From Streptomyces cathayae (GTDB taxonomy: Bacteria; Actinomycetota; Actinomycetes; Streptomycetales; Streptomycetaceae), in NCBI RefSeq assembly GCF_029760955.1, contig NZ_CP121682.1, positions 6,138,001 to 6,202,000 on the forward strand: 64,000 nt of DNA. The letters are read 5' to 3'. The position numbers were made by a program, and so were the translations under genes. Of the stretch, positions 14,852 to 15,925 are shown in pieces; position 1 is the stretch's first letter; the number at the start of each line of letters is the position of its first letter. The notes under the pieces are model-generated. The model was not told the DNA's origin and ran no database searches. It saw only the letters and a list, made by a program, of their open reading frames with translations.

Positions 14852-15925
14852 GTGTCGCTCACCCGCCGACAGGTTTCCGCCGCCGGACTCGGCCTCCCCC
14901 TCGCCCTCACCGTGACCGGCACCGCCCAGGCCGCGCCCCGACGGCCCCGGCCCCGCACCCTCCACATCGCCGGGGACTCCACCGCGGCCCAGAAGTACGC
15001 CGACGCGGCACCGGAGACCGGATGGGGCACGGCGCTCCCCTTCCTGCTCCGCCATGACCTCGTGGTCGCCAACCACGCGGTGAACGGACGGAGTGCGAAG
15101 AGCTTCGTCGACGAGGGGCGGCTCGACGCCGTCCTCGACGCCATCCGGCCCGATGACCTCCTGCTGATCCAGTTCGCGCACAACGACGAGAAGGCCACCG
15201 ACCCGAGCCGCTACCGAACACTTGCCCAGTGCTCCACCCTTCAGGGTGGAGGTGTAGGGCATCCTGCCCGTAGTGGCCCGAAGGGGCGCGGCGGCATGGC
15301 TAAGATCGCCTTGTCCGACGACGGAGTTGTCGGACCTACCGCCGGACGGGCGGGAAGTCAGGCCTGCGGAGGCCGTGTAAGACCGACCCTCACCGGTCGG
15401 CAGTGGCCTGTGAAACAGGAACCCGAGGTGGTACCGCGAAGCGGTACCGACCGGAATCTCCTGCCCTCGGGCAGGAGAGGGCGTCAAACCGAGCCCTGGA
15501 CGACGTACCGGGAGCACCTGCGGCTGTACGTCGCCGGGGCAAGGGCCCGCGGGGCGCGGCCCGTACTGGCCACCCCCGTGGAGCGCCGGAGGTTCGGCCC
15601 GGCCGGCGACGCCGTGCCGAGCCACGGCGCGTACCCGGCGGCGATGCGGGCGCTGGCCGACGAGGAGCGGGTCGCGCTGCTCGACGTCCAGGCCCTGTCG
15701 CTGGCGCTGTGGCAGGAGCTGGGCGTCGAGGAGACCAAGAAGTACTTCAACTGGACGGCGACCGAGCAGGACAACACGCACTTCAACCCGCCCGGCGCGA
15801 TCGCCGTGGCCCGGCTGGTCGCCCGGGAGTTGCTGCGCACCCGGGTGCTTGCTCCGCGGGACGTGCGCCGGCTGGACGAGACGATCCCCGAGTCCTGGAT
15901 CACCTGGCCGGACGCCGCCGCCTGA
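14852..15925 (+). CDS. rhamnogalacturonan acetylesterase (CE12/SGNH) carrying a 91-codon in-frame insertion
   Basis: Secreted SGNH hydrolase. It starts at GTG 14852 (GAAAGG RBS) with a twin-arginine-like signal (MSLTRRQVSAAG...). Block I (AGDSTAAQ), block III (QFAHNDE) and block V (DNTHFNPPG, the Asp-His dyad) are all present. A 273-bp mobile element (15215-15487) lies after residue Y121, between blocks III and V. Its length is a multiple of three and it has no stop in this frame, so one open frame of 357 residues remains. Removing it restores SRY-TEPWTTY, matching the family, and a normal 266-residue protein. Whether the inserted form folds is unknown. Confidence 0.82.
   Translation: MSLTRRQVSAAGLGLPLALTVTGTAQAAPRRPRPRTLHIAGDSTAAQKYADAAPETGWGTALPFLLRHDLVVANHAVNGRSAKSFVDEGRLDAVLDAIRPDDLLLIQFAHNDEKATDPSRYRTLAQCSTLQGGGVGHPARSGPKGRGGMAKIALSDDGVVGPTAGRAGSQACGGRVRPTLTGRQWPVKQEPEVVPRSGTDRNLLPSGRRGRQTEPWTTYREHLRLYVAGARARGARPVLATPVERRRFGPAGDAVPSHGAYPAAMRALADEERVALLDVQALSLALWQELGVEETKKYFNWTATEQDNTHFNPPGAIAVARLVARELLRTRVLAPRDVRRLDETIPESWITWPDAAA
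15215..15487 (+). mobile_element. transposase-less IS200/IS605 (IS608-like) element, 273 bp
   Basis: Ends were set by restoring the host reading frame. The left flank is CTAC and the right terminus is TCAA, like the TTAC/TCAA cleavage sites of IS608. A subterminal left hairpin (arms 15232-15240 / 15243-15251, TC loop) and right hairpin (15458-15466 / 15469-15477, TC loop) lie 17 and 10 nt from the ends. GAAT, the IS608 right guide tetranucleotide, sits just 5' of the right hairpin. There is no target duplication and no tnpA or tnpB. Further internal stems lie near 15313-15335 and 15430-15448. It is a MITE/PATE-type derivative that would need transposase in trans. Confidence 0.82.
15285..15487 (+). 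ncRNA. candidate omega RNA (TnpB guide-RNA scaffold) of the IS605 derivative
   Basis: In IS605/TnpB systems the omega RNA is encoded by the element's right end, and its guide is the host sequence just past TCAA. Here that stretch holds consecutive stems, including GGTACCGC-GAA-GCGGTACC (15430-15448) and the right-end hairpin. The 5' boundary is uncertain. The guide would begin at 15488 (ACCGAGCCC...). Expression and any partner TnpB are unproven; no tnpB is in the window. Confidence 0.35.

Follow-up and report, generated by a model that had tools for sequence, protein, structure and literature searches.

A probable transposase-less IS200/IS605 element with an omegaRNA-like right end interrupts an esterase gene of Streptomyces cathayae

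Introduction

PATEs of Haloquadratum and Halanaerobium are described, in the passages cited here, as elements without a transposase that carry near-terminal palindromes, leave no target duplication and are related to IS605 (PMC3119063, PMC7290912). The Halanaerobium PATE is about 271 nt long and consists of a left hairpin, the last 58 nt of tnpB and a right end (PMC7290912). In IS608, the right cleavage tetranucleotide (CR) is TCAA, the right guide (GR) is GAAT, and the TTAC target, which stays in the left flank, is used with an AAAG left guide (GL) that pairs with it (PMC5934647). The reRNA of ISDra2, about 150 nt long, is made up of the 3' end of tnpB and the right end of the element, followed by a guide of about 16 nt taken from the flank; its TAM is the target of TnpA, and restoring the element at the empty donor site has been proposed as its role (PMC8612924). 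Miniature mobile elements lying in frame inside genes include the Rickettsia palindromic elements and others (PMC10969869, PMC5896051), and for a Coxiella MITE two genes are listed whose stop codon is supplied by the element (PMC5896051).

Here we analyze a 273-bp insert in an esterase gene of Streptomyces cathayae. The gene lies within a stretch of 64,000 nucleotides (contig NZ_CP121682.1 of 7.46 Mb, positions 6,138,001 to 6,202,000, forward strand), which is called the window below; coordinates are those of the window unless a contig position is named. Like a PATE, the insert is too short for a transposase, has near-terminal palindromes and no duplication, and has ends related to an IS605 element of its host (locus L009). 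Two features go beyond what the cited passages on PATEs state (PMC3119063, PMC7290912): the right end is a covarying homologue of omegaRNA, and copies of the element are enriched at antisense TAG stops. With IS608 the insert shares the letters TCAA and GAAT and a target kept in the left flank; it differs in using CTAC with AGTG instead of TTAC with AAAG, and in having neither tnpA nor an intact tnpB. Because the left guide and the target differ from those of IS608 together, we count this difference in favor of IS608-type mobility. In contrast to ISDra2, the insert has no TnpB and would need one in trans, and unlike the Rickettsia palindromic elements its family is not biased toward lengths that keep the frame. 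The insert belongs, as an IS200/IS605-family PATE, to a type already described; a conserved omegaRNA without tnpB, together with landing at stop codons, was not found described in the titles, abstract openings and some passages of the literature searched.

Materials and Methods

Copies were called near-full-length when the BLAST match started no later than element base 9 and extended at least to base 240, which gave 55 copies. Removal of the repeated loci L065, L068, L085, L087 and L092 left 50 unique copies; the same-genus copies L022, L025, L027 and L033 have the flanks of L085, L092, L068 and L087, which come from named Streptomyces records. Of these 50, 24 were found by BLAST and 26 by a pattern scan, and the pattern-found copies contain TAC and CTTGCCCAG by construction. 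Alignment A1 holds 39 of the 50 copies, and covariance model R1 was built from the last 131 bp of 35 of them. Substitutions and indels were counted in 46 copies relative to the esterase copy (L001).

Model R1 was run over 40 loci of the S. cathayae genome; 30 of the 37 TnpB matches of this genome fall within them. The 357-aa ORF of the esterase gene was searched in 61 genomes and matched in 22, its own genome included. The TnpA comparison drew on two sets of 20 genomes: those in which a hit was near-full-length, among the 67 non-own genomes that had one at all, and 20 of the 324 genomes without a hit.

Results and Discussion

The left junction of the insert reads GCTAC (15210-15214) followed by CGAACACTTGCC, and the right junction reads GGGCGTCAA followed by ACCGAGCCC, with the element occupying 15215-15487 and host DNA resuming at 15488. 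The features of the locus are as follows.

14852 to 15925, forward strand: interrupted SGNH/GDSL esterase gene, 357 aa when read through the insert
15210 to 15214, forward strand: target GCTAC, retained in the left flank; CTAC is the left cleavage and target tetranucleotide and would equal the TAM of TnpB
15215 to 15487, forward strand: transposase-less element, probably of the IS200/IS605 family (PATE), 273 bp or 91 codons, with near-identical genomic copies and with empty sites in relatives
15228 to 15231, forward strand: left guide AGTG at the 5' foot of the left hairpin, compared with the IS608 letters (PMC5934647)
15232 to 15251, forward strand: left subterminal hairpin CTCCACCC-TTCA-GGGTGGAG, element bases 18-37, from folding
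15313 to 15335, forward strand: internal hairpin (helices 4-5), both-side changes in 5 of 8 pairs
15339 to 15389, forward strand: remnant of the 3' coding end of tnpB, in the host frame (frames compared by eye)
15357 to 15487, forward strand: omegaRNA/reRNA-like right end, a 131-nt scaffold recognized with covariance model R1, covarying helices 8-12
15454 to 15457, forward strand: right guide GAAT at the 5' foot of the right hairpin, with the letters of the IS608 GR (PMC5934647)
15458 to 15477, forward strand: right subterminal hairpin, element bases 244-263; helix 12, both-side changes in 6 of 10 pairs
15484 to 15487, forward strand: right cleavage tetranucleotide TCAA, present in 49 of 50 unique copies
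15488 to 15507, forward strand: host DNA, putative guide segment of the omegaRNA for the empty donor site beside CTAC, by comparison with reRNA anatomy (PMC8612924)

An earlier sequence-only reading had described a 273-bp insert with CTAC and TCAA borders, two hairpins, a GAAT guide and no target duplication, and all of these sequence claims hold. Its identification as a transposase-less IS608-like element is likewise borne out: the borders, guides and hairpins agree with it, homologous loci have empty sites, and the genome holds several copies along with a TnpA that shares the target. Compared by eye, the element ends (CGAAC and GTCAA) are not inverted repeats, and in none of the 50 unique copies does the left tetranucleotide recur on the right side, so that no target duplication is seen. 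The 273 bp contain no Y1 transposase of their own and are too short for one. Element bases 125-170 share 85% identity with the tnpB genes L006-L008 of the same genome. The predicted fold of the element beats dinucleotide shuffles both as RNA (z -6.7, 0 of 200) and, with short flanks included, as DNA (z -5.5, 0 of 200). The CTAC target precedes 17 of the 24 BLAST-found copies and 26 of the 26 pattern-found copies, where TAC was built into the search. The AGTG left guide is present in 19 of the 24 BLAST-found copies, and GAAT, by a simple position rule, in 42 of all 50. Guide and cleavage site pair as AGTG/CTAC and GAAT/TCAA, judged from the letters alone; in our reading of the rule, the first two bases of AGTG would be complementary to the first two of CTAC.

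The host gene reads through the insert as a natural ORF of 357 aa, in agreement with the earlier observation that the insert is a multiple of 3 and has no stop in the host frame. Pfam matches to Lipase_GDSL_2 (residues 41-119) and Lipase_GDSL (residues 208-322) flank the insert on both sides. We take the esterase to be of CE12 type. By sequence, the closest relatives of solved structure are YxiM (2O14) and rhamnogalacturonan acetylesterase (1DEO); in YxiM, four residues separate the two aligned blocks at the insert point. Neighboring genes encode a GH43 protein, a solute-binding protein, two pectate lyases and a pectinesterase, which suggests a role of the gene neighborhood in pectin use.

Alignment to homologues, proposed earlier as a check, gave a clean empty site in 19 of 19 homologous loci (L133-L151) from related species, not the same species, with the flanking blocks directly adjoining or 1 residue apart and the 91 residues natively carried by none; this count excludes two genomes with weaker esterase-like matches (L152, L153). 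Sixteen of the 19 loci were aligned as proteins with the window esterase, with L139, L149 and L151 left out. Since the 91 residues enter shortly after the HND block, the esterase has probably lost its normal activity.

The S. cathayae genome contains four copies that are 98-100% identical over 273 bp, each located after GCTAC and ending in GTCAA, and a fifth, diverged copy (L005). In addition to the esterase copy, L004 interrupts a GT2 glycosyltransferase gene and L002 a small ORF lacking any Pfam match, three codons short of its end, both in sense frame 0; L003 is antisense to an ORF and coincides with its stop codon. The diverged relative, about 215 bp long, lies between two convergent reading frames (L005 positions ~1408-1621; contig near 6410132-6410252). 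By eye, the P450-like frame on its left stops at a TGA in the opening bases of the element, and an opposite-strand frame, open over 355 codons, runs as far as the right end of the element; both stops may be element-derived.

Across the genus, some match to the element was found in 68 of 392 genomes, own included, many of them short tnpB stretches only. The pattern scan of the genome collection returned 56 stretches, of which 35 match the element by BLAST; all 35 are titled Streptomyces. Streptomyces colonosanans carries a second subfamily of 276 bp, with six near-full-length copies (L049, L058, L059, L062, L079, L088); its length is divisible by 3 and its frame 0 is open, and none of the six has a called gene around it in sense frame 0. 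Gains and losses within the element are seen in L020, L034 and L094 (310, 306 and 179 bp), the last of which misses its middle part and yet still sits at a TAG stop.

Y1 transposase has eight matches in the S. cathayae genome, one of them partial. At L009, an intact TnpA (Y1_Tnp, E 3e-44) adjoins an intact TnpB, the left flank is GGCTAC, the left guide AGTG, the right guide GAAT and the right end TCAA. A search of the genome for a matching tnpA had been suggested from the sequence, and L009, with the same GCTAC target and AGTG guide, answers to it. The right end of L009 matches model R1 at E 5e-15, while its plain BLAST similarity to the element is weak. Within the same genome, L010 has an AAAG guide with a TTAC target, and L009 an AGTG guide with a CTAC target; judged from these letters, the two pairs agree as a guide code would predict. 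No autonomous element with ends closely similar over their length was found in the S. cathayae genome, so the partner was assigned from its target, its guides and omegaRNA homology.

At E<1e-50, the L009 TnpA has matches in 16 of 20 copy-bearing genomes and in 0 of 20 without copies, counts that are uncorrected for genome size and element load and that use an unspecific cut-off, which the TTAC-type TnpA of L010 also passes (1.5e-54). At E<=0.001 the numbers are 18 of 20 and 3 of 20, and a match of at least 76% identity is present in 10 of the 20 copy-bearing genomes. The L009 TnpB had no match in the fetched stretches of the partial-match loci of other genomes (L036, L038-L045). We infer that the element was very probably moved in trans by a TnpA of the L009 type. 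Scarless reversion by excision is plausible by analogy with IS608 chemistry, and the omegaRNA-like right end suggests that a TnpB acting in trans could counteract such reversion.

TnpB-type genes outnumber Y1 transposases in the S. cathayae genome, with 37 matches to PF07282 versus only eight to Y1 TnpA. One of them (L006/L110, contig near 5680800) is a tnpB element without tnpA in the fetched stretch. It has a GGCTAC left flank, an AGTG guide and a GAAT/TCAA right end, and apparently lies in sense frame after a Tyr codon; it is a possible TnpB partner of the miniature element.

We conclude, with good confidence, that the insert is a recent non-autonomous IS200/IS605 (PATE) insertion that was moved by a Y1 TnpA encoded elsewhere, and that its open frame is incidental. 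The element would have kept its two ends and, between them, the tail of tnpB, which would also serve as a scaffold of omegaRNA type, and would have lost tnpA and nearly all of tnpB. A Y1 transposase from elsewhere in the genome, for which L009 is the candidate with the same CTAC target and AGTG guide, would excise the element as single-stranded DNA, and insertion 3' of CTAC in the esterase gene would follow without duplication. Coding GCTAC is mostly read NGC-TAC in this genome, so sense insertions would fall after a Tyr codon. That the length of the 273-bp subtype is divisible by 3 would be chance, and its open frame would come in part from tnpB. Copies elsewhere are mostly in harmless places, either intergenic or antisense at a TAG that the TTGA end turns into TGA.

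Model R1 finds a full-length match at the 3' end of 15 of the 30 TnpB loci (E 3.7e-20 to 1.5e-11; 17 rows, two loci being shown in two search windows) and matches four further TnpB loci at E 1.3e-7 to 3e-4; at 11 of the 30 there is no match below E 0.01. In a control of 40 stretches of 20 kb (800 kb), two matches fell below E 0.1 and the next was at E 0.14. Both control matches are known TnpB loci (L173 covers L016, and L169 covers L104). The consensus structure has 66 pairs with both-side changes in 25 of them, a number reached by 0 of 500 shuffles, which do not remove kinship, and slid structures give 5-12. A search of Rfam with four loci containing TnpB or the element returned nothing at gathering scores. 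In the tree of the omegaRNA part, 36 non-autonomous rows group together, with three TnpB rows nested on a long branch and two label changes, making a single origin of the non-autonomous elements likely.

From the covariance-model matches and the covarying helices, we conclude that the last 131 bp of the element are homologous to the omegaRNA/reRNA of TnpB 3' ends. By ISDra2 anatomy, an RNA made from this copy would carry the sequence from 15488 onward, which would be a guide against the empty esterase site beside CTAC. That such an RNA is actually used with TnpB in trans is suggested by the homology, and we regard it as doubtful. We found no description of omegaRNA-bearing elements without tnpB in literature titles and abstract openings.

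The right end might instead be purely structural, either a fossil or kept as the right hairpin for TnpA. Such a reading denies the guide function alone and is compatible with a TnpA-mobilized PATE. The 271-nt Halanaerobium PATE is composed of a left hairpin, a tnpB tail and a full right end (PMC7290912), and IS608 TnpA binds both subterminal hairpins (PMC5934647), both of which fit a structural role. Against it, both-side changes also occur in helices other than the end hairpins (4, 5, 8, 9, 10 and 11), as counted with a shuffle control that retains relatedness. We hold a purely structural right end to be possible, while leaning somewhat against it.

Insertion sites were assigned to classes with a codon-usage gene caller written for the purpose; its training set was a single genome, and short genes may escape it. 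By this caller, 800 kb of the S. cathayae genome offer 665 GCTAC sites, of which 509 are in sense frame 0, 99 are intergenic, 20 are at antisense TAG stops and 37 are other, and the 50 copies divide into 19 intergenic, 17 at antisense TAG stops, 9 in sense frame 0 and 5 other. Antisense TAG stops thus hold 17 of 50 copies, compared with 3% of available GCTAC sites (P 8e-12 versus all sites; P 0.0006 versus intergenic sites alone). Restricting the comparison to copies at GCTAC gave 15 of 42 at TAG stops (P 4e-11 and 0.0006, respectively), and with the fetched loci as background (12 stop and 55 intergenic of 265 sites) the P versus intergenic sites was 0.003. Both ways of retrieval give a similar share at TAG stops: 7 of the 24 copies found by BLAST and 10 of the 26 found by pattern. 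A simpler stop heuristic assigned 18 copies to this class, 16 of them in common with the 17 of the caller.

All 17 host genes now end in a TGA provided by the reverse-complemented right end of the element (TTGA, or GTGA in one). The last host codon is synonymous in 10 of the 17, and the other 7 are altered in their last residue only. Ten of the 17 host proteins were scanned against Pfam, and 9 of these have a family match. Because TAG-stop sites are almost neutral among those that the CTAC target offers, survival is a rather likely cause of the excess, in preference to targeting. Most insertions into genes have presumably since been lost, given that sense frame 0 accounts for 509 of 665 sites and only 9 of 50 copies. 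A four-base target and a fixed right end can, in combination, make insertion at a stop codon nearly harmless. We found no statement on stop-codon landing of IS605 elements in literature titles and abstract openings.

L009 itself was considered as a further stop-codon insertion, as suggested by its 198-base flank, and was set aside; by eye, its left flank is also a sense ORF that ends there. The right flanks of L102 and L111 can also be read as antisense frames that end at the element.

The sequence-only reading had raised the prospect of a natural translated mobile element. A translated product stands as possible for the esterase copy and for the GT2 copy L004, but translation is not a property of the family, in which 6 of the 9 sense frame-0 copies are not multiples of 3 (271, 272, 272, 275, 275 and 278 bp) and only the three from S. 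cathayae are. Those three (L001, L002 and L004, of the four copies in that genome) are read through, as would suit an element whose open frame is maintained so that insertions after Tyr codons are tolerated, and the Rickettsia palindromic elements offer a precedent (PMC10969869). Sixteen of the 50 unique copies are both open and a multiple of 3 (16 of the 20 multiples of 3), much of which is explained by common descent. Over all 50 copies, however, lengths modulo 3 are distributed 20/8/22 for 0/1/2, and only 18 of 100 indels relative to L001 have a length divisible by 3, some indels being counted several times through shared ancestry.

Substitutions relative to L001 favor the third codon position in element bases 125-273 (216/198/381 at positions 1/2/3), and column entropy peaks at that position in bases 125-225; the signal is absent from bases 1-124 (249/243/243) and, by column entropy, from bases 226-273. 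Part of the 3' half of the element lies in the old tnpB frame, which helps keep the read-through frame open, and we read the third-position excess in bases 125-225 as tnpB inheritance plus shared ancestry. A frame open over 91 codons also arises in 291 of 5000 dinucleotide shuffles, which makes it uncommon, not rare, at this composition. Codon selection on the element was rejected, as the third-position excess is limited to bases 125-225 and frame-breaking lengths are common. Together with the strong depletion of sense frame-0 sites reported above, these data make adaptation of the element for translation improbable; the 357-aa read-through protein is possible and not an evolved feature.

The insertion-sequence part of IStrons is often of the IS605 type. 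Removal of the insert at the RNA level by IStron-like self-splicing, leaving a normal host protein, would agree with the very stable RNA fold and its conserved structure, and IStrons do join a group I intron to an insertion sequence (PMC4227781). The structure is, however, largely accounted for by omegaRNA homology, no Rfam intron was found at E<=1 (the sole match, to an unrelated model of a short leader, lies outside the insert), and the 17 of 50 copies antisense to the gene they touch are placed where splicing of the host transcript cannot matter, so that self-splicing is very improbable. A native insertion domain of the esterase, for which the open frame and nothing else speaks, is negligibly probable, with the segment absent from 19 of 19 homologous loci and the same DNA present in unrelated ones.

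Conclusions

For the esterase gene itself the result is an ordinary one, in which an IS605-type miniature element interrupts an enzyme of a pectin cluster and an in-frame product is possible and incidental. The family provides a natural and repeated test of omegaRNAs acting in trans from elements without tnpB. Tentatively, and against the balance of probability, a transposase-less family spread widely across Streptomyces may, after the loss of tnpB, be keeping a working omegaRNA under selection and borrowing resident TnpB to prevent its own loss. If this is true, the guide of each copy would aim at its own empty site, and the element would be a selfish one that exploits the TnpA and TnpB of others; its CTAC target and TTGA end would then amount to a built-in safe landing, in which its own TGA replaces antisense TAG stops.
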